DNA from: Methanolobus sp. ZRKC5
GTDB taxonomy: Archaea > Halobacteriota > Methanosarcinia > Methanosarcinales > Methanosarcinaceae
DNA length: 64,000 bases
Reading direction: 5' to 3'
Assembly: GCF_038446525.1 (NCBI RefSeq)
Contig: NZ_CP151792.1
Location: 434,001 to 498,000 of the forward strand
Each line of letters opens with the position of its first letter. Positions within the stretch are counted from its first letter, which is position 1. A program made the position numbers and the translations under genes. Shown piece by piece: positions 1,769-43,759 of the stretch. The notes below the pieces were generated by a model, which made no database searches, was not told the origin of the DNA, and saw only the letters and a list, made by a program, of their open reading frames with translations.

Positions 1769-2509
1769 ATGCAATTAAAACAGATTATTCCCATTCTCGA
1801 AGAAATAGCTCCTCCTGAGCTTGCTGAAGATTTTGATATTGGAAGAATAGGGCTTACGCTGAACCTGGAAAATGATGTTAGTAAGATAACTGTTGCCCTG
1901 GACCCTACCGAATATGTACTTAACAGAGCTACCAAGATAGGTGCAGACTTACTCATCACACACCATACACTTATTTTCCACCCCATCAACTGTATTGACA
2001 AAAAACTGGCAGACAGCCTCAAAATAGCAATTGACAATGGAATATCACTATATTCCATGCACACGAATTTTGATAAAGCAAAAGGTGGCATAAATGATGC
2101 TCTTGCAAACAGGCTGGGCCTATCAGACATAAAGGAAACTCCCATTGGCAGAATAGGAACAATTACTCCATGTTCAATAGAGACTTTTGCTAACCATGTT
2201 TCAAAGAGCCTTAACACACACATACAATATACAGGCAACAAAGAAGAAATAAAGAAAGTAATGGTTTTCGGAGGCAGTGGTTTCAGGTCAGAGTATATTG
2301 AAACAGCAAGAGAATACGGTGCAGATGCTTATGTATCATCGGAAATTAAACACGATATAATACGCTCGTTCAGTGACATGCTTCTTGTGGATGCAACACA
2401 TTATGCCACGGAAAATCCGGGTATGCAGGACCTTTGTCCAAGACTTGCAGAAAAATTGAAACTCGATGTGGAATTCATAGACCATGACCCCCTTATCAAA
2501 ACCATCTGA
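1769..2509 (+). CDS. Nif3-like dinuclear metal centre protein (DUF34)
   Basis: A 246-residue member of the NIF3/DUF34 family, a toroidal hexamer with a two-metal site of uncertain substrate (some members annotated as GTP cyclohydrolase I type 2). The metal ligands are visible: LLITHHTLIF near residue 71, HTNFDKAKGG near residue 100, and a C-terminal SSEIKHD and DATHYATE. The reading frame extends upstream to a TTG at 1745, but ATG 1769 fits the family start, where homologues begin with M-x-x-x-x-I-I. There is no clear Shine-Dalgarno site, so a short or leaderless transcript is possible. The next small gene follows after 14 bases. Confidence 0.88.
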   Translation: MQLKQIIPILEEIAPPELAEDFDIGRIGLTLNLENDVSKITVALDPTEYVLNRATKIGADLLITHHTLIFHPINCIDKKLADSLKIAIDNGISLYSMHTNFDKAKGGINDALANRLGLSDIKETPIGRIGTITPCSIETFANHVSKSLNTHIQYTGNKEEIKKVMVFGGSGFRSEYIETAREYGADAYVSSEIKHDIIRSFSDMLLVDATHYATENPGMQDLCPRLAEKLKLDVEFIDHDPLIKTI

Positions 2510-2523
2510 GAGCCTGTGATCAC

Positions 2524-2691
2524 ATGCCAGCAGAAGATGAAATGAAAAATAATGATATCGGTGAAGATGAACTCGAGGAGTTATTTGAAAAACAACTTCA
2601 GAAAAAAGGGGACCAAAAGCACCGCGGATATGGTGATTATGAAAGAAGAAGGATATACAGGGGACCCGATGTCAAAAGGGACCCTGAATAA
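2524..2691 (+). CDS. Small charged protein, 55 residues
   Basis: A short open frame 14 bases after the Nif3-like gene. The sequence TGTGATC just upstream of its ATG matches the archaeal anti-Shine-Dalgarno (GGTGATC). The protein is acidic in its first half (GEDELEELFEKQLQ) and basic in its second (HRGYGDYERRRIYRG). No cysteines or membrane segment. It ends three bases before the stop of the convergent Trm56 gene. Support is the ribosome-binding site, operon position and charge-patterned composition; I know no function. Confidence 0.55.
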   Translation: MPAEDEMKNNDIGEDELEELFEKQLQKKGDQKHRGYGDYERRRIYRGPDVKRDPE

Positions 2692-2694
2692 AAC

Positions 2695-3243
2695 CTAATT
2701 GGACAAATCATATTGTCGATTATCGATAACCTGCTTACCACATCTCTCAGGAACTATTGTTAGTTCCCCACCTTCAAATTCATTTCTCAATGGGTCACTT
2801 TTAGCTATCCGGTCCAGAGTGACAGCAACGGCTGCAACTTCAGAATGTGGTTGGTTGCCAACTGCGACATTCCAGTCAGCCATCTCATATATTTCAAATG
2901 GGACCTTTTCCGCACCAACAACGATCATAAGTTTGTCGCATTGACGAATCTCAGGAACGGCGTCCGGCAGGTTTATCCCGTACATGGACAAATGACAGAT
3001 CTTTCCGCCGTCTTCTTTCCATTTCTTTATTTCAGACTTCCAGTTGACATCGTTCTTAACGTAGAAGTCACCGCCCCATCTTGTTGAAACATCATCTATG
3101 TTACCGGCAAGTTTCTTATCCTCGGATGCCAGAAGCATACCTTCTGCACCAAAGGCTCTTGCTGTAAGGCCCACGTGTGTGGTTATCCTCTTGTCTCTCT
3201 GAGGACGGTGGCCAAGTCTTAGTATTACTATCTGTTCAGGCAT
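2695..3243 (-). CDS. trm56: tRNA (cytidine(56)-2'-O)-methyltransferase Trm56
   Basis: A 182-residue SPOUT-class methyltransferase that 2'-O-methylates C56 in the T-loop of archaeal tRNAs, using S-adenosylmethionine. The N-terminus LRLGHRPQRDKRITTHVGL and the C-terminal knot region (IVVGAEKVP, NVAVGNQPHSEVAA) are hallmarks of the family (COG1303); length is normal. It starts 5 bases after the stop of the AMP phosphorylase gene, so the two are probably co-transcribed. Confidence 0.93.
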   Translation of the reverse strand: MPEQIVILRLGHRPQRDKRITTHVGLTARAFGAEGMLLASEDKKLAGNIDDVSTRWGGDFYVKNDVNWKSEIKKWKEDGGKICHLSMYGINLPDAVPEIRQCDKLMIVVGAEKVPFEIYEMADWNVAVGNQPHSEVAAVAVTLDRIAKSDPLRNEFEGGELTIVPERCGKQVIDNRQYDLSN

Positions 3244-3248
3244 AGATA

Positions 3249-4769
3249 TCAGACTTCTGTAACATCTGCTACTTTCTCAAGAAGCATACCCTCAACGATT
3301 ATGGGAAGATTCTCTCTTGCACTTTTAATAGCTTCTGCGAGTTTTTCTTCTTTCTCAGCATATATTGTCAGAACAGGTTGTCCTTCTTCGACAGACTGAC
3401 CACGTTTCTTGTGGATCATAACACCTGCACCCTTATCATTTGGTGCACCCGCAAGTCTTGCTATCTGAACTATGCGTTTGTTGTAGAATTCGAGAATATA
3501 GCCGTTTGTAGGGGCTGTCAGGTCTGCAGTGAACTCACCGACCTTAATATCTTTGTGAGTTACATCCGGATTGCCGCCCTGTATCTCAATTATTTCTTTC
3601 AATTTTGCCAGAGCTTTACCATTCTTCAATGTCTCGATGGCAAGTTCGCGGCCCTGTCCTTTGGCAGCAACCCCGCCCATTTCAAGAAGCATGCCTGCAA
3701 GTACAGCGCTCTTTTCTATGAGACTGTTGGGACCTTCCATTGTTTCAAGGACTTTGAGAGCCTCTATTACTTCTAGTGCCGGGCCTACGGTCCTTCCTAC
3801 AGGAGATGCACCATACGTAAGTGCGCAATCTACGTCCATACCAAGGCGTTCACCAAGACTTATGAGGTCTCTGGCAAGCTTTCTTCCGGCCTTGACATCA
3901 GGTAGTTTAGTGCCTGCACCGGTGGGAAGATCCATAACAACCTTCTGAGCGCCAACTGCACCTTTTTTAGCCATAATGGAAGCCAGCAACTGGCAGTGTG
4001 GGTCTATGGAAAGAGGATATTCGATCTTTATTAGTTTGTCATCTGCAGGTGCTATATTAGTAGCACCACCCCAGACAATGACACCGCCTACTTTTTCTGT
4101 CATTTCCTTTATCTGCTGGGCAGTGAACTCCACCGGAGCAAGTATCTCCATAAGATCTGCTGTGCCTCCAGCACCGGTTATAGCACGAGAGCTGGTCTTT
4201 GGGATAAGCAGGCCGTTAGCTGCAACGATCGGAACAATAAGAAGAGATATCTTATTACCAGGCACACCACCGATTGAATGTTTGTCCATTATAGGAGAGG
4301 TGCTGAATTCTATACGCTCGCCGGTCTCTATCATTGCCTTTGTGAGCCATTCGGTCTCATCTTCACTCATATCCTTAATGTAAGTGGCAGTAAGGAAAGC
4401 TGCAAGTTCGATATCGTTGAGATTTTCCTCAACTATATCCTTTACAAGCTCGTATATCTCGTCCCTTTCAAGCTTGTGCCCATCCATCACTTTCCTGATA
4501 ATGTGGGTGGATGTTGGTTTTTCTGCAGGTTCAACTTCTACAGTTTCTGTCCATTCCCTCTGCAACCGTTCCTGCACCTCGTGATACAGTCCTATCATTC
4601 CCGGAGAAATCATGTCCTCTGTAAAATCAACAATTGCCGTAAGGATTGTGTGGTCTTTGACCCTTACCCTGTCGCCCTCGTTAACTCCCAATTCCTTGGC
4701 GTCAATTGTATTCAACACCACTTTATATTTGCCGACTTTGATATCGATAGGCTGTACTTTTAGCTGCAT
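3249..4769 (-). CDS. deoA: AMP phosphorylase
   Basis: A 506-residue archaeal AMP phosphorylase of the thymidine phosphorylase superfamily. It converts AMP and phosphate to adenine and ribose-1,5-bisphosphate, the first step of the archaeal AMP pathway leading through ribose-1,5-bisphosphate isomerase to type III RuBisCO (neither seen here). The extra N-terminal domain of about 85 residues is present, and the phosphate/nucleoside site KHSIGGVPGNK lies near residue 162, with TSSRAITGAGGTAD following. GGTGGA precedes the ATG. The gene is divergent from the guanine-deaminase-like gene and followed closely by trm56. Confidence 0.94.
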   Translation of the reverse strand: MQLKVQPIDIKVGKYKVVLNTIDAKELGVNEGDRVRVKDHTILTAIVDFTEDMISPGMIGLYHEVQERLQREWTETVEVEPAEKPTSTHIIRKVMDGHKLERDEIYELVKDIVEENLNDIELAAFLTATYIKDMSEDETEWLTKAMIETGERIEFSTSPIMDKHSIGGVPGNKISLLIVPIVAANGLLIPKTSSRAITGAGGTADLMEILAPVEFTAQQIKEMTEKVGGVIVWGGATNIAPADDKLIKIEYPLSIDPHCQLLASIMAKKGAVGAQKVVMDLPTGAGTKLPDVKAGRKLARDLISLGERLGMDVDCALTYGASPVGRTVGPALEVIEALKVLETMEGPNSLIEKSAVLAGMLLEMGGVAAKGQGRELAIETLKNGKALAKLKEIIEIQGGNPDVTHKDIKVGEFTADLTAPTNGYILEFYNKRIVQIARLAGAPNDKGAGVMIHKKRGQSVEEGQPVLTIYAEKEEKLAEAIKSARENLPIIVEGMLLEKVADVTEV

Positions 4770-4929
4770 TGTTCCACCTTTATTTTATACAGAACATGCG
4801 CTAAGGGATAAATAGGTTTATGGTGAGTTTTGGAAATTGAATAGGAATATTGAACTCGGATACTTGCTTTTATGCCAAGACTTCACACCCACCACTGCAC
4901 TTAAAGCCCACAAATTATAATACTGCCTC

Positions 4930-5394
4930 ATGAACGCCTTTATGCAAATGGCCATAGAAGAAGCACGTCACGGTATGGAACACGATCACGGAGGACCATT
5001 CGGGGCGATTATCGTGAAGGACGGCAAGGTATTATCCAGGACCCACAATGAAGTGTTGAGAAGCAATGATCCTACTGCACATGCAGAGATACTTGCCATA
5101 AGGCAGGCATCTACTGTTCTGGAAAGATTTGACCTTTCGGACTGTGAGATATATACAAGTTCACAGCCGTGTCCAATGTGTCTTGCAGCAATTTACTGGG
5201 CACGCATAAAGACCGTGTATTACGGCTCCGATAAAGATGATGTTGCCCTTATTGGTTTTGATGACAATCTTTTTTATGAGTATATTCGGGGAGAAAGTCA
5301 GGATAGTGGAATAAAGCTGATTAATATTGAGAGGGAGGAAGCCCTTAAGTTGCTCAGGCAGTGGTCTGAAAAGGATGATAAACAGACTTACTGA
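4930..5394 (+). CDS. guaD: Guanine deaminase-like nucleoside/base deaminase
   Basis: A 154-residue zinc deaminase of the cytidine deaminase fold. Zinc and catalytic motifs are clear: PTAHAEILAIR and QPCPMCLAAIYWAR. The segment IGFDDNLFYEYI near the C-terminus resembles Bacillus GuaD rather than the tRNA adenosine deaminase TadA, so hydrolytic conversion of guanine to xanthine is the best guess. A TATA-like AAATTATAATA lies only about 10 bases before ATG 4930 and no Shine-Dalgarno site is present. The transcript may therefore start near the fifth codon (ATG 4942) and be leaderless. Head-to-head with AMP phosphorylase, it suggests purine salvage. Confidence 0.85.
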   Translation: MNAFMQMAIEEARHGMEHDHGGPFGAIIVKDGKVLSRTHNEVLRSNDPTAHAEILAIRQASTVLERFDLSDCEIYTSSQPCPMCLAAIYWARIKTVYYGSDKDDVALIGFDDNLFYEYIRGESQDSGIKLINIEREEALKLLRQWSEKDDKQTY

Positions 5395-5421
5395 TATGAG
5401 TTTGCTTGAATTTAAGCTTGA

Positions 5422-5434
5422 GAGGATTTCGATA
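5422..5434 (+). repeat. Left terminal inverted repeat of the IS5-type element
   Basis: GAGGATTTCGATA; matches the reverse complement of the right end without mismatch. The four bases outside it, TTGA, recur outside the right end. Confidence 0.88.
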
Positions 5435-5497
5435 AACTACCATCAATACTCATACAATTTAATAAAATTTAAATAATAGCAAAGCAAATTTACTATT

Positions 5498-33254: not shown

Positions 33255-33725
33255 TCATTCACATTCCTCTAAAGAATCTCTAATTGAGGGTATCTTTTCC
33301 TGATCGAACAATCCCTCAACTGAATCGCACATTGACAGAATCCTATCAGCATCGGATAGCTCAGGTTCACCATGATAATAATCGTCAATAGAACAAATAC
33401 CGAATATCTTATCCATAGACCTAATCTCTTTGTTCAATTCTTCCGGTACATCGATAATCATTTCCACAGTATCCATCAAGCAGGTGTAATTGTGATTAAA
33501 TGGTTCCACGTCATACAAATAACACAAAGCAACAAGATAACGTTCAAGTGCGAGTGAGGATACGTTGAATACAACACTATGATCCTGTCCTTCTGTCTGG
33601 AACTGTCTTGCTCTACGAAGGTATGCCTTTGAGTCACGGTATTCCTGTTCAAATTCGTCAAATCTCGACTTTTTTCCATAAATTCCAGCCTCATCTGATA
33701 ACCTCCTATTGTGATTAAAAAACAT
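33255..33725 (-). CDS. HEPN-like helical protein
   Basis: A 156-residue soluble all-helical protein. The segment VFNVSSLALERYLVALCYLYDVEPFNHNYTCLMD resembles the core of HEPN domains (a helix with conserved Ser-Leu-E then a His-containing second helix). The RxxxxH nuclease motif of active HEPN RNases is not visible, so a binding role is more likely. It lies 139 bases beyond the zinc-ribbon gene of the ESCRT/SPFH region, in the same direction, and may or may not belong to it. Confidence 0.6.
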   Translation of the reverse strand: MFFNHNRRLSDEAGIYGKKSRFDEFEQEYRDSKAYLRRARQFQTEGQDHSVVFNVSSLALERYLVALCYLYDVEPFNHNYTCLMDTVEMIIDVPEELNKEIRSMDKIFGICSIDDYYHGEPELSDADRILSMCDSVEGLFDQEKIPSIRDSLEECE

Positions 33726-33864: not shown

Positions 33865-35394
33865 TTAATCAAGTTTCTGCCCACAATTAATACAGAACTT
33901 TTCACTGCCAGCAACTTCCCGTCCACACTGAGGACACGTTCTTTTACCGTTACCAATATTCGAGCGCTGAATAACACTGTCCTGTATTGTGGTGTTGCTT
34001 ATATTATACTGGGTTACAGAATCATCAACAAAAAGTTTGATATCAGTTCTTTTTTCAATCTCTTCAAGTATCTTATGATAGAAACCTGTAAGCGCTTCTT
34101 CTTTTTCAGCCCATGCTTTTACTATTAGCCTTGATTTACGTTTACCCACCACTTCAACATATGCAGCATACTTCAAACCAGCCACACCTTCGCCGTAAAA
34201 CCTTGCCACACCGGTGAACAGTTGTTGTGTGGACGTTACCTCAGGTACTATCATAAACATGTTCATATCTTTCAGGATGCGTGTGGCCATATCAAAAAGG
34301 TTCTCAGCCGGAATTACAAGATCCTTGGTATCTTCTTCTGCAATCATCATAGAACTGATATTTAGTCTCCATTCAGCCTCATCGACCTCTTTAACCTTGA
34401 GCACCGGGCAGACTATATCCACCATTTTGTTACTAAGATCGAACTGAACATGCTTTTTCTGTATGTAATCATAATAACGAATATTTCCTGCCAATATACA
34501 ATTCCCGCACTCACCAGTTGGCCTGATCAAAAAAGTTGCAGTTTTTCCCTCCCTTGGCTGAAGCATAGGTATTGTCTTCTGATTATCCTTGATGCAGAAG
34601 ACCTCGGGAACAAAGAGACTTATGGTTATATCACCCATCGGCTCTTCTGAAGTGTTTTCAACCTTGATCTTGTAAAGAATATTTGCGCCTTTGTACTGGA
34701 GAGCTGATTTGATTACCACAGGGTCACGTTTTGAAGTTGCTGTCGTCACAATTCCAGCTTCAGTATTTACAGCTGTTTTTGAACTCTTCTCTTTCCCATA
34801 TGAAGAGGAAAACGCAGCTTTCTTTTTTTCCTTTTTGAGAGCTTTTTTATCTTTGCCTTTCTTTGATACTTTACGCATCAGTAAAACTGCCACAATAACT
34901 ACGGCAAGAATTGCAAATATTTCATATAATTTATCTTCTGCAGAAGTATCGGAGTAATAGGAAGAATCCGCATAGTCAGTTGAGTAATCAAGCTGCTGGT
35001 CATCTGCATTTTCATCGTAAGTAACGGTATAATCAGGATAGATGTAGGTATCTGAAAGAACTACGTAATCATAACCATAGAATGAATCATAATATACATC
35101 ATCAATTTTGAATTGAAGGGTCAAATGGTCATCCTGGTAAGAAAAGTACCCCCCTCGCGAGTAATACTGGTCCCAGACCATAGTGTCATAATATGACACC
35201 ACAAATCTTACAGTTTCATCGTAGGTATCAATATCCATTACAGTCAGGTAGTAACCATCCTGAATCTCTGCTATCTCACCTTCAGAAAGTGTAATTTCAT
35301 AGTCGTCTGCAAATGCAGAACCAGCATTCAGGCAAAAGATGCTGCATGCAAGAAGCAGTATAATCAGAGCTTTGGAAGATTTTTGTACCAACAT
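33865..35394 (-). CDS. Exported Ig-like membrane protein with C-terminal zinc ribbon
   Basis: A 509-residue protein. A signal peptide (ALIILLLACSIFCLNAGSAFA) leads to a Tyr/Asp-rich extracellular domain of about 115 residues, one membrane helix (FAILAVVIVAVLLM, near 168) and a Lys-rich stop-transfer. The cytoplasmic part has an Ig-like domain (about 230-330), an alpha/beta domain (about 340-465) and a zinc ribbon CPQCGREVAGSEKFCINCG. The motif DSVIQRSN before the ribbon also occurs in the protein at 38862-40595, with similar Ig and C-terminal domains, so the two are paralogues. GGTGA is unusually close to the ATG; TTG one codon later is an alternative start. Confidence 0.85.
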   Translation of the reverse strand: MLVQKSSKALIILLLACSIFCLNAGSAFADDYEITLSEGEIAEIQDGYYLTVMDIDTYDETVRFVVSYYDTMVWDQYYSRGGYFSYQDDHLTLQFKIDDVYYDSFYGYDYVVLSDTYIYPDYTVTYDENADDQQLDYSTDYADSSYYSDTSAEDKLYEIFAILAVVIVAVLLMRKVSKKGKDKKALKKEKKKAAFSSSYGKEKSSKTAVNTEAGIVTTATSKRDPVVIKSALQYKGANILYKIKVENTSEEPMGDITISLFVPEVFCIKDNQKTIPMLQPREGKTATFLIRPTGECGNCILAGNIRYYDYIQKKHVQFDLSNKMVDIVCPVLKVKEVDEAEWRLNISSMMIAEEDTKDLVIPAENLFDMATRILKDMNMFMIVPEVTSTQQLFTGVARFYGEGVAGLKYAAYVEVVGKRKSRLIVKAWAEKEEALTGFYHKILEEIEKRTDIKLFVDDSVTQYNISNTTIQDSVIQRSNIGNGKRTCPQCGREVAGSEKFCINCGQKLD

Positions 35395-35498
35395 TTCACC
35401 TTTATCTTTCCATATTACTGTTTTACTGTTTTTAGCCTTAGTGATATTTAACCTTCGCTTAAAAAAAGTAAGTATGAACTAAGTTCATACAATCAGTA

Positions 35499-36791
35499 TC
35501 AAATATCAGTAAGTTTTTTACCACACTGGCTACAAAAGCTCGATTCGGAAGGAAGTGTTGAACCACAACCTGGACATTTTCTCACGGTTGATGATATCTT
35601 GCCCTGCGCTGCCCCCATCAGAGAAGCATCAAGCTCCTTTCTTCGATATGAATCAGCGCGTTCCCTGTCCTCAACTTCCATCATAAAACTAACCTTGTCC
35701 TCCTTTGCAACAGCCTCACTCTGTTTGACCTTTGCAAGTGCTTCCAGTTGCTCTGGCGACATACGTCCGTATTCACGACCCTCACTCACAGTCTTGGCGA
35801 CATCGACTCCACCAGCTTCTGTAATATGTTTGAGGTATTCCATATCACGACCATGATCACGGTCTTTCATGTCCTGTTCGACTTCAAGCTCCGCCCGCAT
35901 TCCTCGAGCCTTTGCAAGTTTTAATTCTTCCTTAAGGCCAATGGCTTCCCTGGCTTCCCGCATGTCTGCTTCATGTTGCAACCTTTCGATATCAATATCA
36001 GACTTGGCATCCCCCAACTTTTGATTGCGTTGAAAATCCCTTTCTGTTGAAATTGTTGCATGACCTGCACGTATTTCTGCTACTTCTTCTCTTCCCCTGC
36101 GCTCAGAATACCCCTCTGTTGTAAGAGTATCAAGCTCAGCAAGTTCTTCCTTTGTCTGAAAATCATTGGTCGCCTGCATAACCTTTCCATAAGAACCAAG
36201 GTCCCACTGGACTGTATATTTCAGCATTTCCAGCCCCCACATAGACAATGTGGACCGAACCCTCATTTCAAGCTCGTTCTCTATATTAAGGCAAAGGTTC
36301 CTGTTCCCATACAGTTTTTCTATGTCTTCCTGCCTGACCTCAGGTTCAAGGACAAGGGTAAGCACTTCATCCTCAAGGCGAGAATATATATCCTGTACGG
36401 AAAGTACTCGGGTTCCCTTTTTATCAGGTGTTGTATAAGCATAGAGCATCTGGAAGAAACGTTTTGGATCCTGTACCCTGAACCTGAGTAGTCCACTGCA
36501 AGCTACCTTCTGATTATCCCTGGTCCATAGTTCGGATTGCGTCCATTGCAAATCCTTTGAAGAGGTGTCCATCAGGACAACATCCACATCTTTCCCAATA
36601 TTGCCCGGTTTTAAAAGGCCACCAACCTTCAATTTACCGCTGTCTACAATCTCATCAACAACTCCATTCTTTACCATGGCTGCCTTTTCATTCGGAGAGA
36701 GGATTACTGCTTTACTGAAAAAACCTCCAACTTCCTTTTTAGGAACCACCCTGGCAACATCATCTGCTTCTCTTTTCCATTTGAACGCCAT
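35499..36791 (-). CDS. SPFH (band 7/flotillin-like) protein with zinc ribbon
   Basis: A 430-residue protein. The SPFH domain spans about residues 20-210 (AVILSPNEKAAMVKNG, LLRFRVQDPKRFF, RVRSTLSMWGLEMLKY), followed by a long highly charged coiled coil (about 215-370, ERLQHEADMREAREAIG) and a C-terminal zinc ribbon CPGCGSTLPSESSFCSQCG. No membrane helix is present, so membrane binding would be peripheral, as in related YdjI/YdjO-type SPFH proteins. SPFH proteins form ring or cage scaffolds on membranes. It heads the minus-strand arm divergent from the ESCRT-III/Vps4 arm. Confidence 0.9.
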   Translation of the reverse strand: MAFKWKREADDVARVVPKKEVGGFFSKAVILSPNEKAAMVKNGVVDEIVDSGKLKVGGLLKPGNIGKDVDVVLMDTSSKDLQWTQSELWTRDNQKVACSGLLRFRVQDPKRFFQMLYAYTTPDKKGTRVLSVQDIYSRLEDEVLTLVLEPEVRQEDIEKLYGNRNLCLNIENELEMRVRSTLSMWGLEMLKYTVQWDLGSYGKVMQATNDFQTKEELAELDTLTTEGYSERRGREEVAEIRAGHATISTERDFQRNQKLGDAKSDIDIERLQHEADMREAREAIGLKEELKLAKARGMRAELEVEQDMKDRDHGRDMEYLKHITEAGGVDVAKTVSEGREYGRMSPEQLEALAKVKQSEAVAKEDKVSFMMEVEDRERADSYRRKELDASLMGAAQGKISSTVRKCPGCGSTLPSESSFCSQCGKKLTDI

Positions 36792-36850
36792 GATATTTAC
36801 ACCTTTTTTGTTAATGTTTAATTTTTACTTCTATTTAGGTATTGAGGAAG

Positions 36851-36891
36851 TATTATATATATTGTTTTCCATTGTATACATAAGCATACAA
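36851..36891. promoter_or_regulatory. Divergent promoter with TTGTAT-N8-ATACAA operator candidate
   Basis: A TATA-type run TATTATATATATTG (36851-36864) lies between the divergent SPFH and ribbon-helix-helix genes. Just downstream, TTGTAT (36872-36877) and ATACAA (36886-36891) form a 20-bp inverted repeat over the expected plus-strand start. The ribbon-helix-helix protein encoded immediately downstream is the natural candidate to bind it and control both arms. Confidence 0.5.
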
Positions 36892-36914
36892 AGCGACGCA
36901 AAGTTGGAATAACA

Positions 36915-37070
36915 ATGGCTAATTCGTACCCGGTGAGTGCAAGAATCTCAGAAGACAGTAAACTATATCTGGATACATTAGTAGAAATGGGAATAGCTAT
37001 CAATAAATCTGAAGCTATGAAACTGTGTATACGATATGCAAAACAGAAAAGAATGGAAGAGGAATTGTAA
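36915..37070 (+). CDS. Ribbon-helix-helix (CopG/Arc-type) small DNA-binding protein
   Basis: A 51-residue protein. A short beta strand (YPVSARIS) is followed by two helices (EDSKLYLDTLVEMGI and NKSEAMKLCIRYAKQKRM), the standard ribbon-helix-helix plan with the N-cap NKSEA. The stop TAA shares its last base with the ATG of the ESCRT-III-like gene, so translation is coupled. Likely autoregulator of the cluster. Confidence 0.72.
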   Translation: MANSYPVSARISEDSKLYLDTLVEMGIAINKSEAMKLCIRYAKQKRMEEEL

Positions 37071-37639
37071 TGGCATTAAAGAATCCATTTAAGAAGGTAT
37101 CACCCGAAGAGCTGAAAACAAAACTTAGCATTTCCGAGCAAAGACTAACAAGCCGTGAAAAGGAACTGATGAAAAAACAACAGAAATCCAGGGAACAGGC
37201 TAAAGAAGCTCTTGCAAATGGAAACGACAGAGAATTCAGAGTTGCATCACGAAGACATTCCCTTGTTGAGGGTCAGGTCAACACCATTAGCAGCATGGTA
37301 GAGATGGCACAATCCATGACCGATGTAATTGAGATGCAAACCGGCCTAAAGGAAGTTGTTGAAATTGGCGAGGACCTGGGAAAATGGCAAAAACAACTTG
37401 GCTTTGATACCAATAAACTCGAAGGTGCTGTAACAAACATAAGAACCTCCATGGAAAAAGTAAATACAGCAACAAGTATGATGACATCCTCCATGGATGC
37501 AGCAATGAGTGGTGGGAATGAACTCTCTGATATGCAGGATTCATTAAGATCAGAACTCCTTGCAGAGCTATCAAGCGAGACACCAGAAAAAGATGAGCTT
37601 TCAAAGAAGATCGAATCCGAAATGGCAGATACCGAATAA
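37070..37639 (+). CDS. ESCRT-III/Snf7-like protein
   Basis: A 189-residue, almost entirely helical, charged protein. A short basic N-terminus (KNPFKK) precedes a long Lys/Glu/Gln-rich helix (LKTKLSISEQRLTSREKE) and a second helix with the Snf7-type pattern of basic residues and LxxQ (SRRHSLVEGQVNTISSMVEM). Shorter helices, a Ser/Met-rich linker and an acidic C-terminal tail (LLAELSSETPEKDELSKKI) follow. Basic core with acidic tail and family length match ESCRT-III/CdvB. ATG 37070 is supported by GAGGA and by overlap with the previous stop. The Vps4-like ATPase follows 53 bases later, which is the usual genomic partner. No unambiguous MIM motif is seen. Confidence 0.78.
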   Translation: MALKNPFKKVSPEELKTKLSISEQRLTSREKELMKKQQKSREQAKEALANGNDREFRVASRRHSLVEGQVNTISSMVEMAQSMTDVIEMQTGLKEVVEIGEDLGKWQKQLGFDTNKLEGAVTNIRTSMEKVNTATSMMTSSMDAAMSGGNELSDMQDSLRSELLAELSSETPEKDELSKKIESEMADTE

Positions 37640-37692
37640 TCTGGAATTTTGTTTTCTGAAATCAGCCAGATTCGTAATTTTGAGGTGCTTAT

Positions 37693-38856
37693 TTGAACTC
37701 AGCCATCACATTTGCTGCACAAGCGCGCGGTTATGCAAAAGCTGCAAAGGACCTGGAAGACAGAGGTCAATCTGAAAGAGCGCGTGAATTATACCTGAAA
37801 GCTGCCAAGCTCTACAACGATGCTTCCAATATGCTTGGTGATGGTATTGACCGCAACACACAGCGCGACCTTGCAGAACATCTTTTTGCCAGAGCCCAAG
37901 CGCTTAAAAGAGGTTCTGCTGTTTTGTCTTCTGACGGAAATAACCAGAGCAGAAAGGATTCCGGAAGCAACGATGAATCTTCTCTTTCAAAAGATGATGT
38001 TTTTCTCAAAGAAATGCCTGACATTGGATTTTCAGACATCGGTGGCCTTGAACAGGTGAAAGAGGAAATACGAAAAGCTATAATTTACCCGTTCACACAT
38101 AAAGAACTCTACAATATGTACGGCCAAAAAGCCGGCGAAGGGATTTTACTATATGGTCCCCCTGGTTGTGGTAAAACCATGATGGCAAAAGCAGCTGCAA
38201 AAGAATGCGGAGCTGAGTTCATCAGTGTCAAGACCAGCAGTATTGTAAGTAAATGGGTGGGTGCTTCGGAAAAGAATGTAAAGCAGGTTTTTGACATTGC
38301 CCGCAAGGGAAAGAGATCCATTATCTTTTTTGACGAGATTGATTCTATTGCCGGAAGACGCAGTGAAAGTGAAGACTATGCAAAGAGAGTTGTAAACGAA
38401 CTTTTAGCGCAAATGGATGGTGTGGATACTGATTCTGATAATCTTCTGGTGCTTGCAGCTACAAATGAACCATGGGCAATCGACCCTGCCCTGAGACGCC
38501 CGGGGCGTTTCAGCAAACTTGTCTTTGTTCCTGAGCCAGACACTGATGCTAGGATAGCGATTCTAAATATACATTTGAAAAAGCGACCCGTTGATAATGA
38601 TGTCGATATAAATCGTCTGGCTACAATTACAAATTCCTACTCCGGTGCAGATCTGGCGGCTATATGCAAGGAAGCTGCAGACATTCCACTTGGAGAAGCT
38701 TTGAGAGGTAGCGAACCAAGAAAAATAAGACTTCAGGACTTCGAAGCCGTATTACAAAAGAGAAAACCATCCATCGTTAGCTGGTATATAGAAGCCAGAT
38801 CCTCTATCCAGAAGACTGGTGAAGAAGATGTCTTTTCTGAACTACTAAAAAAGTGA
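37693..38856 (+). CDS. Vps4/CdvC-like MIT-AAA ATPase
   Basis: A 387-residue protein. Residues 1-75 form a three-helix MIT domain (YAKAAKDLEDRGQSERAREL, YLKAAKLYNDASNML). The AAA domain has Walker A GPPGCGKT (155-162), the Vps4-type pore loop SSIVSKWVGASE (182-193), Walker B IIFFDEID (210-217) with Glu 215, and arginine fingers in LRRPGRF (267-273). The C-terminal KPSIVSWYI helix matches Vps4. The Vps4 beta domain is absent, as in archaeal CdvC. It should disassemble ESCRT-III polymers. The start is TTG, backed by GAGGTG 6 bases before it; no upstream ATG exists and the next Met would cut the MIT domain. Confidence 0.93.
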   Translation: MNSAITFAAQARGYAKAAKDLEDRGQSERARELYLKAAKLYNDASNMLGDGIDRNTQRDLAEHLFARAQALKRGSAVLSSDGNNQSRKDSGSNDESSLSKDDVFLKEMPDIGFSDIGGLEQVKEEIRKAIIYPFTHKELYNMYGQKAGEGILLYGPPGCGKTMMAKAAAKECGAEFISVKTSSIVSKWVGASEKNVKQVFDIARKGKRSIIFFDEIDSIAGRRSESEDYAKRVVNELLAQMDGVDTDSDNLLVLAATNEPWAIDPALRRPGRFSKLVFVPEPDTDARIAILNIHLKKRPVDNDVDINRLATITNSYSGADLAAICKEAADIPLGEALRGSEPRKIRLQDFEAVLQKRKPSIVSWYIEARSSIQKTGEEDVFSELLKK

Positions 38857-38861
38857 TTCTA

Positions 38862-40595
38862 ATGCCGCTGAAATGGTCATATTTCGACCCCCGTGATAAC
38901 CTGCGTATAGGTATTTACATAGGCCTCTTCTTTGGTCTAGGAGGAGGATTTCCCCGTATAATAGCAAGTGGAATGATAGGGTTTATACTTGCAGCTATCA
39001 CTGCATATATTGTTCCAAAAGTGATTAGCGGAAATGCTAAAAATGAACAAACTGAAGATAGCATTCTTCCCCATGCAATTTTTACAGGAGTTATAATAGC
39101 AATATTCGGTGCTTTGGTCTTCTCTTCATTTGAACCAGTTCCTTTAATCGCAATTTTTGTCTGCCCTCTGGTTTCACTTCGATCGGGTTCCAGAGTCAGA
39201 ACAGCTATAAAAGAAATGAATGCGGAAAAAGAAATCAAAAGAATAAAAAAACTCGAGCACGAAAAACAGATTAATGAAGCACTTAATATTGCCATAGACA
39301 TACAACAACCTTTGAAAGCAGAAACGGAAAATCCAGTAAAGGTAACCATCATAAATCCTTCTGACATACCAATAACGAACGTCTCAATACGAGCGGAGTG
39401 TTCCCGTCTCGTTCGATGTGAAGAAAACGTGGTAAGTATTGACGTTATAAATGCAGAATCATCCGGCTATACTGCTATTTTTCTGTACCCCAGACTTCCA
39501 GATAATATCGATCTTGGTAAAATATATGTTTCCTACCTAGTCAATGGAAATTATTATAAAAAGGAGCCTATTGACATAGGAATTTATGAAGTATCAAAAG
39601 GCAGCCCAGTAATGGATAGCAATAATCCTGAATTAAGAACTCAGATACAGGTATTCAGGGAAACTGAATTCTACCAGGGTTTTGTCCGTTTGAAAATGTC
39701 TGTTAACAATGTATCCGCTCTTGTGGTTAATGATGTAGCATTGGATTTTGATTTTGATGAACACCTTTTCAGGATAGACAGATTTGAACCGATGTATTCC
39801 GCAAAGAATGACAAATTGCTACTCGGAAACATAGAAGGTAACAATTCAAAGTCGGTTATGATTTATTTCGATCCCCTCATCTGTTCGAAGTCCTCTGAGA
39901 TAAAATGCAGAATATTCTACAAGGATGCAAAAGGGAAACTGCAGAACACAGAGATGGAAACAAAAAGAATTGCAGTGACATGTCCTATTATGAAAACAAA
40001 TTCTAACATAAATATCGGAATGCTTCGGGAACTTTTGGCTGCGCTTCCTTTCAGGGATAGTAAAGTATATCATATCAAATCAGACTTTGATATTGTAACA
40101 CTTATGAACATGTGTCGCGAGATGGTGCAGCATCATGATATAAGACATGTTCGGACCTTGAGAAACAAAGATGGAAATCATTATGAAACCTGGTACTATG
40201 GCAACACAAAGGTGAATGACCATGACATCATCCTGAAGATCACAATCTCTGGAGATACAGGTAGTATCGAACTTTTTGGTGCAACGCAGACAGCCGAGTC
40301 ACTTGTAGGTATGCTTGCAGAATTCGGTCGTGAACTTTGCAGGGAGATGAAATCGAGTTTGAATGGAAAAAACGATGTTAAGCAGATAGTAAATGTAACC
40401 ATAAAAGATTCCATAATCCAACGCAGCAACTTGCTGAACTCATGTGATCTTAATGGCAATTGTGAAGACAATGTTATTGTAGAGGATAGCGTGATACAAA
40501 AATCAGAGTTTATGGTTAATTATTGTCCTTCATGCGGTTCTAAAATTTCCCAAGGTGCAAACTTTTGCAGTGAATGCGGAATGAAGATTACATAA
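38862..40595 (+). CDS. Membrane protein with Ig-like domains and zinc ribbon
   Basis: A 577-residue protein. Four N-terminal membrane segments in two hairpins (residues about 16-50 and 66-105) lead to a basic coiled segment (NAEKEIKRIKKLEHEKQ). Two Ig-like domains (about 135-250 and 265-375, the second ending in AVTCPIMK), an alpha/beta domain (about 385-505), two DSxIQxS motifs and a zinc ribbon CPSCGSKISQGANFCSECG follow. The last 300 residues match the protein at 33865-35394 in order and motif. It starts 5 bases after the Vps4-like stop with GTGAT upstream. Likely a cytoplasm-facing membrane platform of the ESCRT-type system. Confidence 0.85.
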   Translation: MPLKWSYFDPRDNLRIGIYIGLFFGLGGGFPRIIASGMIGFILAAITAYIVPKVISGNAKNEQTEDSILPHAIFTGVIIAIFGALVFSSFEPVPLIAIFVCPLVSLRSGSRVRTAIKEMNAEKEIKRIKKLEHEKQINEALNIAIDIQQPLKAETENPVKVTIINPSDIPITNVSIRAECSRLVRCEENVVSIDVINAESSGYTAIFLYPRLPDNIDLGKIYVSYLVNGNYYKKEPIDIGIYEVSKGSPVMDSNNPELRTQIQVFRETEFYQGFVRLKMSVNNVSALVVNDVALDFDFDEHLFRIDRFEPMYSAKNDKLLLGNIEGNNSKSVMIYFDPLICSKSSEIKCRIFYKDAKGKLQNTEMETKRIAVTCPIMKTNSNINIGMLRELLAALPFRDSKVYHIKSDFDIVTLMNMCREMVQHHDIRHVRTLRNKDGNHYETWYYGNTKVNDHDIILKITISGDTGSIELFGATQTAESLVGMLAEFGRELCREMKSSLNGKNDVKQIVNVTIKDSIIQRSNLLNSCDLNGNCEDNVIVEDSVIQKSEFMVNYCPSCGSKISQGANFCSECGMKIT

Positions 40596-40669
40596 GACAA
40601 TTGATTCAATAATATATTTATAATCAAACTTCCATAAACTAATTATTCACTTATGGCTAGGCGATTTAG

Positions 40670-41932
40670 ATGAAATTCGGACCTCTAGAGGATGTAGCTA
40701 AATCACTTGCTCATGCGCTTCAGAACAAAGCAGGTGGTCGGAGTGGACTTTTCTTCCAGATATATTCATTTTTATGGATTGTACTTTCCACATACTTGAT
40801 AGCAAGTCTCATACTATCCATTAATAGTAAACTTGATCTAATATATGCTGCCAGTGCACCGATATACATTTTTCTTCTTTATATCATAATCTACATTTTC
40901 TGGACATATGAAAAGAGAGTCGGTATTGAAAGCAGAAGAGTAAAAGAGTTACAAATTGTTGATTCCGTAAATCTAGAATATAAATTTACAGAACCTGCGG
41001 AACTCGGATTTAGCAATATGCTTTTCTTCAGGGTAAATAATCCCACTGAAAAAATGATAGAGAACATCTGGATAAGGGCAGCATTTCCCGGAACCATTCG
41101 ATGCGATAAACCTGTTTTGAATCTTGGAGATATTGAGCCAATCTCTTCGGTGTCGTCTTCTTTCTCTTTTATACCCCTGGTAGCAGGAACTATGTCCATG
41201 GGCTATTGTGACCTTTACCTTGAGGTTAACAATAACAAACACCAAAAACATCCAATCTTTTTTGGGAATATTGACATTGTCCATTCATTCTTTGAATTAA
41301 AATTTGAGCAACTTGAAACACTTCGACTTGGGCAAAGTTCTACAATATCCATTAAAATGAAAAACACCTTAAATGTTGATCTGATTAATCTGCATGTGAA
41401 ATCTTCTTTCCCAAAAGGACTGAAATATGATACAGCGTTTTCAGATACAAAGAATATGGCACCTGATTCATCTTATGGCGTCACATATCAGATCATGCCA
41501 ACAATTGCAGGCATATTGGATATTGGATATTTTGAAATTATATTTACCCTGGGTAACAACAATTGCAAGATAGGCCCCGTGGCTTTTGGAGAGCAACACA
41601 TACAGATCCCTGATGTGAATGTTAAGATCAATGTTCCTGAAACACTATATAGTGAGGTTGGGAACACACTGAATATTTATGTAGAGAACAGATCGGATGA
41701 AACTGTCAGCAATGTTTGCTTTAATAGCTGCTTCTCTTCTTTTGTAGAATGTCAGAATACTGATGCTTGCATACCTGAAATACAGCCACATTCCTCAGCA
41801 TATACGTCCCTTGCAATAAAACCGATCAACGCTGGAAAAATCGATCTTGGAAACCTCAATTTTTCCTTTGAGGTGAATGAAGTTCTTTGCCAGCAAGAAC
41901 CCATTGATCTTGGAACACATGAAATAGCATGA
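40670..41932 (+). CDS. Membrane protein with three Ig-like repeats
   Basis: A 420-residue protein with two membrane segments (about 28-52 and 58-80) followed by three repeats of roughly 105 residues. Each repeat is beta-rich and has the pattern N-P/T/R-x-x-x-V-x-N-V with a closing Gly-x-I-D-L/I-G strand (SMGYCDLYLEV, DIGYFEIIF, IDLGNLNFSFEV). The repeats resemble the first Ig-like domain of the upstream membrane protein (PIDIGIYEVSKG against PIDLGTHEIA). It lacks the zinc ribbon. No enzyme motif. Fourth structural gene of the ESCRT-type arm. Confidence 0.8.
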   Translation: MKFGPLEDVAKSLAHALQNKAGGRSGLFFQIYSFLWIVLSTYLIASLILSINSKLDLIYAASAPIYIFLLYIIIYIFWTYEKRVGIESRRVKELQIVDSVNLEYKFTEPAELGFSNMLFFRVNNPTEKMIENIWIRAAFPGTIRCDKPVLNLGDIEPISSVSSSFSFIPLVAGTMSMGYCDLYLEVNNNKHQKHPIFFGNIDIVHSFFELKFEQLETLRLGQSSTISIKMKNTLNVDLINLHVKSSFPKGLKYDTAFSDTKNMAPDSSYGVTYQIMPTIAGILDIGYFEIIFTLGNNNCKIGPVAFGEQHIQIPDVNVKINVPETLYSEVGNTLNIYVENRSDETVSNVCFNSCFSSFVECQNTDACIPEIQPHSSAYTSLAIKPINAGKIDLGNLNFSFEVNEVLCQQEPIDLGTHEIA

Positions 41933-42047
41933 ATATGCAAAATTAGTCTCCTAATTATTAAATCATAAAACATCTAATTGATAGTTATAAAAATTTGTAT
42001 TTTAGATGAAGTTGACTATGCTCTAAAATAATCAGGAAACGATAAAG

Positions 42048-43319
42048 ATGGAAGTACTAAAAGACCCCGAAGCTCTGGAAAAGAATAATCGGCAAATTGT
42101 GGTCAGGAACCTGAACGATGTTTATAGCTCTATTGAAAAACTTATCCAGCGAACGTATGCACAAAAAGAGACAGACATCAATTTCCAGCTTCGCAATATC
42201 AGGACAAATGTATCCCAACTTCTTTCAGATATAAAAAATAAAGAACTTGTTGGATTTTCTGATAGAAAAGGTACATTAGAGGATTTTTACAGGACAGAAA
42301 ACAACTTGTTGGAAGAATCTGCCACAGTGAAAGACGTTTTCTCCTCACTTGTCAGTCCAACAAAGTCTATTGATATTTTTCTGTTGGAAGATCTTCTTGA
42401 GAACTTAAAAAAAGACATTGATCAGCGCATTATTGTAGACAAGAATATGCTCAAAGAGTTCAAACTAAAACAAATGGAAGCAAAGAGTGCAGAACATGTA
42501 ATCTCCGGTGAGAAACAGATTTCAATTGAAACTGATGATGATGCTTCAATTCCCTCCCAAGTAAAGAATATAGGAAGGTCATCTGGATCTTCAAGCTCCT
42601 CCAAAAATATATTAGCGCCTTCAATGAATTCTGGTAGAATAGTTTCAGGTGAAATTAAGAAAAATGTAGAGGAAAGTATCAATACTGAAATGCTTTCAAA
42701 ACTCTATAATTACATGAACGCACAGGAACACAAATATTCTATACACCAGGCTGAAATATCATTCAATGGAGAATATATCGGAGATAAAAAATGGAAAGTT
42801 AACAAATCGGACAAATTCATTTCCGGAAGCATAATGAATACTGTTTTAAAGCCTCTTCTCACATTTGAGACATACTGGCATCCATTTGATGACCTCAGAA
42901 CTATTATGCAGTTTGTACAGAGAGAAGCAAACGCCGTTCCAAAAGGCCAATATAAAAGTATTTGTATTTTGAATTCAGAGTGGAAAAGTGATATTAAAAT
43001 CTGGTCACAAAATTATGTACATCCACGCATGATTCTCTATCTTTATAATCTTGAGAATGATGAGTTACTATTTGATAAGAACGTGGAACGTGCAGACCAA
43101 CTTAAAGTATGGCATAATTTAGATACCTACATAACTCTTGAGAATGAAATTTTATCCCTGATAGAACAAACTGAATCATTTGATGCTGAAGATGTAGCTG
43201 AAAACACAGGATTAAGTATCAACGGAGCTAAAAAATTAATTTCAATAATGCTTTCCAGAAACAAAATAATTGATCTGGGATTTGGAACATCCAGCTATAC
43301 TGGAATTAAAAATAAATAA
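42048..43319 (+). CDS. Coiled-coil protein with C-terminal winged helix
   Basis: A 423-residue soluble protein I do not recognise. The N-terminal 150 residues are helical with likely coiled coil (YSSIEKLIQRTYAQKETDIN, LEDLLENLKKDIDQRI). A Ser-rich linker (SSGSSSSSKN) leads to an alpha/beta domain (about 230-360, KSICILNSEWKSDIKIW; RMILYLYN) and a C-terminal winged helix (IEQTESFDAEDVAENTGLS, NGAKKLISIMLSRNKI). It is last in the plus-strand arm and 115 bases after its neighbour. ESCRT-III proteins of archaea and Asgards often bind winged-helix partners, so an adaptor role is one possibility. Confidence 0.75.
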   Translation: MEVLKDPEALEKNNRQIVVRNLNDVYSSIEKLIQRTYAQKETDINFQLRNIRTNVSQLLSDIKNKELVGFSDRKGTLEDFYRTENNLLEESATVKDVFSSLVSPTKSIDIFLLEDLLENLKKDIDQRIIVDKNMLKEFKLKQMEAKSAEHVISGEKQISIETDDDASIPSQVKNIGRSSGSSSSSKNILAPSMNSGRIVSGEIKKNVEESINTEMLSKLYNYMNAQEHKYSIHQAEISFNGEYIGDKKWKVNKSDKFISGSIMNTVLKPLLTFETYWHPFDDLRTIMQFVQREANAVPKGQYKSICILNSEWKSDIKIWSQNYVHPRMILYLYNLENDELLFDKNVERADQLKVWHNLDTYITLENEILSLIEQTESFDAEDVAENTGLSINGAKKLISIMLSRNKIIDLGFGTSSYTGIKNK

Positions 43320-43330
43320 AAATGCATCAG

Positions 43331-43349
43331 AGAGTGAGAAACTCACTCT
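43331..43349. terminator. Shared hairpin between convergent genes
   Basis: AGAGTGAG (43331-43338) and CTCACTCT (43342-43349) pair over a 3-base loop. It lies between the stop of the winged-helix gene and the end of the S6e gene and includes the S6e stop. T-rich sequence follows on the minus strand. Confidence 0.7.
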
Positions 43350-43759
43350 GCTGCTGCTTCAACGTCCTCAGCTGGCTCTTCGTCGCCACCAAGGATCCTT
43401 TCTATAGTCTTGTCACCATGCTCTACAACAACTGTGTTGATCTGAATGATGTCAGGTGCAATTTCCTTTCCGCGCATCATCTTTCTGCGGCGTACACCTT
43501 TTGCAACTGGTGAATAACCAGTTCCTTCTGCAACGAGTACTTTTCTTCTGCTTGGTCCTGGAAGGTCCGGTCTCATGACCATTCCACTCTTGTCGCTTCC
43601 GCCAGTAATCTTAAGTGTGTATCCGGGTAAACCAGCGATTGCTCCATCTACGGTTTCTCCAATAGATTTACCAACTAATTTATTAGCTTCAGCGCCTGTG
43701 ACATCGATCTGATATGATTTTGTCTTTGGGTCTGCTACCACTACTTTGAAATCTGCCAT
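43343..43759 (-). CDS. rps6e: Ribosomal protein S6e
   Basis: A 138-residue archaeal S6e of the 30S subunit. The N-terminal [19 protein letters not shown], the glycine-rich centre [15 protein letters not shown] and the basic [17 protein letters not shown] segment are diagnostic. The C-terminus is a short acidic tail. Gene order S6e downstream of nothing but upstream-adjacent aIF5B is common in archaea. Confidence 0.96.

Follow-up and report, generated by a model that had tools for sequence, protein, structure and literature searches.

Among archaeal systems built on ESCRT (endosomal sorting complex required for transport) proteins, the main text of Makarova et al. (2024; PMC10936438) describes a Meth_adaptin type composed of the ATPase Vps4, an ESCRT-III protein, two adaptin-appendage proteins, a protein that joins SPFH, coiled-coil and zinc-ribbon regions, and ProX. 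One of the two appendage proteins carries a zinc ribbon, and the other is fused to a GOLD domain through a transmembrane (TM) segment. Here we analyse a related gene cluster in a stretch of 64,000 nucleotides (the window) from the complete 3.05-Mb genome of Methanolobus sp. ZRKC5. The cluster spans positions 33865-43319 of the window, and the letters A through H are our labels for its open reading frames (Table 1).

The cluster is almost certainly a Meth_adaptin-type ESCRT system, and thus a member of a class already described in 2024. Specifically, the window encodes an MIT-containing Vps4 (E), an ESCRT-III protein (D), two appendage-type membrane proteins with zinc ribbons (A and F) and an SPFH-coiled-coil-zinc-ribbon protein (B). 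The link to the published type runs through the corresponding locus of another genome (G031; locus L052), which carries exactly the GOLD and ProX fusions named in that paper, as an appendage protein joined to OpuAC/ProX (2.3e-70) and another joined to GOLD (1.8e-5). Its ESCRT-III and Vps4 proteins are 80% and 66% identical to those of the window, and the Vps4 proteins are orthologous. Because the G031 locus is of the published type and close to ours, the window cluster belongs to the described class. No GOLD or OpuAC/ProX domain was recognised by Pfam in the window cluster itself, where the outer domain is instead a lineage-specific beta-rich domain; we treat the GOLD fusion and ProX as accessory and variable, and not as clade-defining. 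The initial annotation, made from the sequence alone, had proposed a euryarchaeal ESCRT-III/Vps4/SPFH/zinc-ribbon module for membrane remodelling and could not say whether it had been described. The module stands: the fold predicted for D is ESCRT-III-like and the genes are kept together in related genomes, so that neither of the two conditions under which the initial annotation would have failed applies. Its class is already in print, in a paper whose text assigns the clade to Methanobacteriales; the relatives found here are all Methanosarcinales. A text search returned no other paper that uses the Meth_adaptin name and none that joins ESCRT with Methanolobus.

The identity of D as an ESCRT-III-like protein is supported chiefly by its predicted structure. 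Pfam Snf7 matches D at 0.005, and 18 of 21 orthologs give the same match (2.7e-4 at best), each time under the curated cut-off; the family matched is Snf7 and not PspA_IM30. A six-frame Pfam search of the source genome with Snf7 gave nothing at 0.001, which indicates that single-sequence Pfam comparison is too weak here and that structure is needed. In the AlphaFold2 model (mean predicted local distance difference test, pLDDT, 73.5), alpha1 and alpha2 form a long hairpin and shorter helices come after it. The top Foldseek matches of the model in the PDB are Sulfolobus islandicus CdvB, Asgard ESCRT-IIIB and CHMP1B/IST1, with Vipp1 and the Snf7 core lower in the list. The CdvB match has a probability of 1.00, an E-value of 0.015 and a modest TM-score. 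E-values in this search are only 0.01-1, and the top matches are mostly ESCRT-III entries, interspersed with a few BAR and IncA proteins. A PDB profile search with the D family returned chance matches only, and direct hhalign comparison of this family with main-clade ESCRT-III proteins was not significant, so the two are linked only through fold and context.

The neighbouring protein E is well supported by sequence models as a Vps4/CdvC-type ATPase with an N-terminal MIT domain. Pfam AAA matches it at 2.8e-45, together with AAA_lid_3, and the NCBIfam CdvC model covers residues 2-368 with an E-value of 9e-74. The MIT domain is matched at 0.005 in the window protein and at 1.8e-6 in one ortholog. 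Among 296 genomes, orthologs of E score above 650 bits and the next-best AAA proteins at most 330 bits. Single-AAA proteins also occur in L109 and in L104 through L106, where the only other trace of a cluster gene recognised alongside was a short zinc-ribbon match in L106.

The genes are arranged in two divergent arms fed by a shared 123-bp intergenic region, with B then A reading leftward and C-D-E-F-G-H reading rightward. All of the reading frames first listed for this locus were recovered at their coordinates. The stop codon of C overlaps the start of D (TAATG), and the start of F overlaps the end of E (38853 versus 38856). In B, the CxxC...CxxC pattern of the zinc ribbon is invariant in 19 orthologs.

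Table 1. Features of the ESCRT locus and its neighbours, in window coordinates.
Feature	Position	Strand	Evidence
HEPN-domain protein, left-hand neighbour	33255-33725	-	Pfam HEPN 5.4e-4
A: membrane adaptor, 509 aa, C-terminal zinc ribbon	33865-35394	-	Pfam Zn_Ribbon_1 1.2e-5; hydropathy
B: SPFH/Band 7, coiled coil, C-terminal zinc ribbon, 430 aa	35499-36791	-	Band_7 1.1e-7, Zn_Ribbon_1 2.6e-5
Divergent promoter/operator block, predicted	36850-36890	.	conservation in 22/23 loci
C: 51-aa ribbon-helix-helix-like putative DNA-binding protein	36915-37070	+	sequence pattern
D: ESCRT-III (Snf7-like) protein, 189 aa	37070-37639	+	Pfam Snf7, AlphaFold2, Foldseek
E: Vps4/CdvC-type MIT-AAA ATPase, 387 aa, TTG start	37693-38856	+	Pfam, NCBIfam
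F: second membrane adaptor, 580 aa, zinc ribbon	38853-40595	+	Pfam zinc ribbon
G: membrane protein, three Ig-like repeats	40670-41932	+	Pfam Transglut_C 9.8e-10
H: helical/coiled-coil, linker, alpha/beta, winged helix, 423 aa	42048-43319	+	AlphaFold2, Foldseek
Ribosomal protein S6e, fixed right-hand neighbour	43343-43759	-	

Comparison with related genomes defines the unit as A-B-C-D-E-H, with F optional, since several loci have the core genes but not F. The divergent layout of genes B through E is the same in Methanolobus, in Methanococcoides and as far away as Methanoperedens-type genomes; in some loci resembling those of anaerobic methanotrophic archaea, E lies several kb away from the rest. 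That the SPFH, small-protein, ESCRT-III and Vps4 genes are kept together in one layout excludes chance as the reason for their association. In Methanolobus and Methanococcoides the unit adjoins the gene for ribosomal protein S6e, and genomes without the unit retain S6e and, mostly, PNPOx, as well as G in Methanolobus. Comparison of L060 with L021 reveals the clean removal of a stretch of about 6.4 kb comprising A, B, C, D, E and H, with G and the HEPN gene left behind. Similarly, about 6.1 kb has been cleanly lost between L071 and L102, with part of A left in place; the IF2 sequences of these two differ very little. A decaying unit is present in L063 (1760-7532), where fragments of H, F and A surround G and the B-C-D-E genes are gone. 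The HEPN-domain gene adjoining the unit in the window is kept in relatives whether or not they have the ESCRT genes. Protein G, which had been listed among the products of the system, is an Ig-like membrane protein as stated, but was rejected as a part of the system because it stays in place when the unit is deleted.

Presence of the unit is patchy among close relatives, and a large share of genomes of the same genus lack it. The IF2 tree and the tree of D plus E are broadly congruent, and genomes lacking the unit turn up at no fewer than four points of the IF2 tree. The system is vertically inherited with repeated loss, largely as one unit, and is therefore dispensable and accessory; the text of Makarova et al. 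says as much of archaeal ESCRT in general (PMC10936438). A mobile-element reading was rejected because the two trees broadly agree and the locus is fixed.

The same patchiness might be expected of a defence system, and the initial annotation had raised defence as a possibility. In such a reading the proteins would seal membranes or kill the cell upon phage or plasmid entry. Yet the chromosomal locus is fixed and vertically inherited, with no mobile or defence neighbours seen. Furthermore, the PADLOC matches are to the generic AAA region of IetA and similar ATPases and to coiled coil, and NCBIfam IetA scores 131.7 against a cut-off of 510. With no known defence family above cut-off in PADLOC or NCBIfam, this suggestion was rejected, and we regard it as improbable. 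A Cdv cell-division system is more doubtful still, to the point of being scarcely credible. The core of ESCRT-III and Vps4/CdvC would suit such a role, but the source genome has three tubulin/FtsZ-family genes (FtsZ/CetZ) elsewhere, many genomes of the genus lack the system, and no CdvA was recognised within the cluster (no genome-wide search for CdvA was made). The division reading was rejected on the presence of the tubulin/FtsZ-family genes and the deletion of the unit in relatives; given these natural deletions, an essential role in division is very unlikely.

The strongest clue to function, in our judgement, comes from the two membrane adaptors. Hydropathy and sequence comparison of A indicate a signal peptide, an extracellular beta-rich domain, one TM segment (about residues 155-173) and a cytosolic region, which consists of an Ig-like domain, a helix-grip adaptin-appendage region, a DSVIQRSN motif and the C-terminal zinc ribbon. 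The helix-grip domain is, by homology, probably TBP-like. Over the appendage region, A aligns with the appendage-GOLD protein of L052 (E 9e-9), and Alpha_adaptinC2 is matched at 1.9e-4 in two A-family orthologs. Protein F has N-terminal TM segments, Ig-like domains, an appendage region, DSVIQ(R/K)S motifs and a zinc ribbon, and is 47% identical over 303 aa to the product of L052 5814-7232. From their sequences, both A and F can thus be classed as adaptin-appendage (IG + TBP) membrane proteins with zinc ribbons. In nearly all adaptors (A, F and those of L052), a beta-strand-like repeat, (T/I)IxDS(V/I)IQRSN, separates the appendage region from the zinc ribbon and is possibly a short oligomerising element.

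In 13 orthologs, the cytosolic half of A shares 64-74% identity with that of the window protein, versus 35% for the outer half. In some relatives the outer half has been swapped outright, for PEGA domains in four members and for a multi-TM DUF975 region in one, and the appendage regions of L052 are joined to ProX or GOLD instead. Members of the F family carry beta-propeller, TPR, PH or VTT domains, each in single cases. A constant inside combined with a variable outside has the look of a ligand or cargo receptor. The zinc-ribbon receptors first proposed from the sequence thus correspond to the published adaptin-appendage proteins (PMC10936438), and the swapped outer halves support their reading as receptors.

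Protein H appears to supply a link to other archaeal ESCRT loci. Its AlphaFold2 model (pLDDT 79) opens with a helical domain, which a disordered linker connects to a central alpha/beta domain, and ends in a winged helix (wH) at the C terminus, in agreement with the coiled-coil/winged-helix protein originally noted, and the wH part finds wH matches in Foldseek. A PDB profile search with H yielded nothing informative. Profile comparison by hhalign relates H to a protein of L097 (95.6%, E 1e-8), which in turn matches a protein of L108 (BLASTP 2e-7) and proteins adjoining ESCRT-III/Vps4 in other euryarchaeal loci. Within this chain of homology, the comparison of A3 with A6 gives 90% (E 1.6e-6), or 58% (E 1e-4) when the bridge is left out. 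These comparisons identify H as a distant homolog of wH proteins at other archaeal ESCRT loci. Those H-related proteins share the architecture published for arCOG09748, which the text of Makarova et al. likens to ESCRT-II (PMC10936438), and from position and architecture we infer that the wH proteins of L108, L113 and L115 are arCOG09748.

Several loci show H-like proteins in other company. L097, on a distant archaeal contig, has an SPFH-zinc-ribbon protein near its H-like wH protein (2109-3761 and 4275-5477) along with TPR/coiled-coil and beta-propeller proteins, and no ESCRT-III or Vps4 was recognised there; perhaps it is a related system with another motor. In the main-clade-like loci L113 and L115, a short ESCRT-III-like coiled-coil protein comes after the wH protein, with a PEGA-like/Ig membrane protein adjoining in L113. 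The H homolog of G273 (L086) has an in-frame TAA and is probably a decaying copy; no Meth_adaptin Vps4 was found in that genome.

The intergenic region between the arms contains a single 27-bp block, TTATATATA(N2)GTTTTC(C/T)ATTGTATAC, made up of a TATA box and, after it, a palindrome with GTATAC at its centre. The palindrome is ATTGTATACAAT in many loci and TTGTAT-N8-ATACAA in the window, and lies approximately where transcription is expected to start. This block is essentially invariant in 22 of 23 intergenic regions, and the remaining intergenic sequence does not align. It occurs once in the source genome. When 60 relatives were searched with up to two mismatches, each of the 20 genomes with the ESCRT-III gene contained exactly one block, and the remaining 40 contained none. 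At all loci examined the block adjoins C, a small protein in which 23 of 51 positions are invariant in 19 orthologs (mean conservation 80%). Library matches of C are weak (RelB at 0.06; AbmR at 1.6e-6, under its curated cut-off). An economical reading is that C is a ribbon-helix-helix (RHH) autorepressor of both arms, and we consider it likely that C binds the conserved block. The main text of Makarova et al. 2024 (PMC10936438) uses none of the words ribbon-helix-helix, RHH and promoter.

The explanation that we judge best, and hold with reasonable though not high confidence, is an accessory, receptor-coupled membrane-remodelling module with autoregulation by the RHH protein. The scheme starts from the observed parts and their architecture and infers every interaction among them. 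The outer domains would bind a ligand, cargo or a damaged surface component, and the appendage region and zinc ribbon would gather the SPFH scaffold. Protein H might then nucleate polymerisation of D on the inner face, as ESCRT-II does, and E would remodel and recycle the polymer, thereby sorting, budding or sealing membrane. A dimer of C would bind the palindrome between the TATA box and the start site, repress both divergent arms and so limit expression in an autoregulated and possibly inducible manner. We lean slightly towards receptor-coupled sorting or budding rather than pure damage repair.

Damage repair is the essence of a Psp-like alternative, in which the SPFH protein recruits ESCRT-III to damaged membrane, Vps4 recycles it and the outer domains sense damage. 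An SPFH-zinc-ribbon protein beside a member of the ESCRT-III superfamily parallels the Bacillus ydj operon (PMC11237479), whose YdjI recruits PspA (cited in the text of PMC10936438), and a dedicated regulator hints at an inducible response. However, the genome has its own PspA at 80 kb, outside the cluster, the system is dispensable, and fusions of adaptin-appendage regions with GOLD and ProX favour recognition of cargo or ligand. The presence of both FtsZ/CetZ and a separate PspA suggests that the system serves neither division nor the Psp response, and we consider the Psp-like alternative rather unlikely. A similarly low standing is given to biogenesis of extracellular vesicles specifically, by analogy with ESCRT in Sulfolobales. 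The core is the same, and vesicle formation and protein sorting are proposed in the text of Makarova et al. (PMC10936438), but no specific marker of vesicle biogenesis accompanies the genes.

Several observations weigh against the receptor-coupled, autoregulated module. The ESCRT-III similarity of D falls under curated cut-offs, and its structural model is of medium confidence. No fold was recognised in the outer domain of A, which makes any ligand speculative. The RHH fold of C derives from a sequence pattern only, a PDB profile search with C retrieved no RHH structure, and conservation of the block could reflect a core promoter plus some other regulator.

A more ambitious and still tentative form of the receptor-coupled module is a self-regulated, ligand-sensing ESCRT machine, with interchangeable outer domains (PEGA, GOLD, ProX and others), one constant cytosolic core (appendage-zinc-ribbon, SPFH, ESCRT-III and Vps4) and an RHH switch that turns the machine on through a single operator in the genome. 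If this were true, the system would amount to a prokaryotic counterpart of ESCRT budding triggered by receptors, possibly near the ancestral archaeal state. The text of Makarova et al. places ancestral archaeal ESCRT at about the complexity of the Meth_adaptin type (PMC10936438). Thus, a dispensable, non-division version with GOLD, adaptin and SPFH partners in culturable methanogens is a place to test that idea, and Meth_adaptin systems offer a way to probe the role of ESCRT before eukaryotes and before its co-option for division. The putative operator provides a handle, because whatever lifts repression would reveal the stimulus of the system, and the close pairs L071/L102 and L060/L021, in which only one member has the unit, are natural knock-out comparisons.

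The cluster can be placed among known systems by its partners. Main-clade euryarchaeal ESCRT (arCOG09748/arCOG08177, STK/STP) likewise has ESCRT-III, an MIT-Vps4 and a protein with helical, coiled-coil, central and wH regions, of which H is a distant homolog, but it has kinases (seen in L107 and L108) and lacks SPFH and appendage-zinc-ribbon proteins. The Bacillus ydjFGHI/PspA-SPFH system shares an SPFH-zinc-ribbon partner of an ESCRT-III-superfamily protein, but belongs to the PspA branch, is without Vps4 and has bacterial partners (TPM, YdjG). CdvABC of TACK archaea shares ESCRT-III and Vps4/CdvC; the window system differs in having no recognised CdvA in the cluster, in coexisting with FtsZ, in being dispensable, and in its appendage and SPFH partners. 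Within the Meth_adaptin class, the main text of PMC10936438 names no wH protein for the clade and mentions neither the small RHH-like gene, nor the invariant block, nor loss as a unit. To this known class our analysis adds the borders of the unit and its dispensability, an exchange of adaptor domains reminiscent of receptors, the connection to other loci through the wH protein, and the regulatory block.

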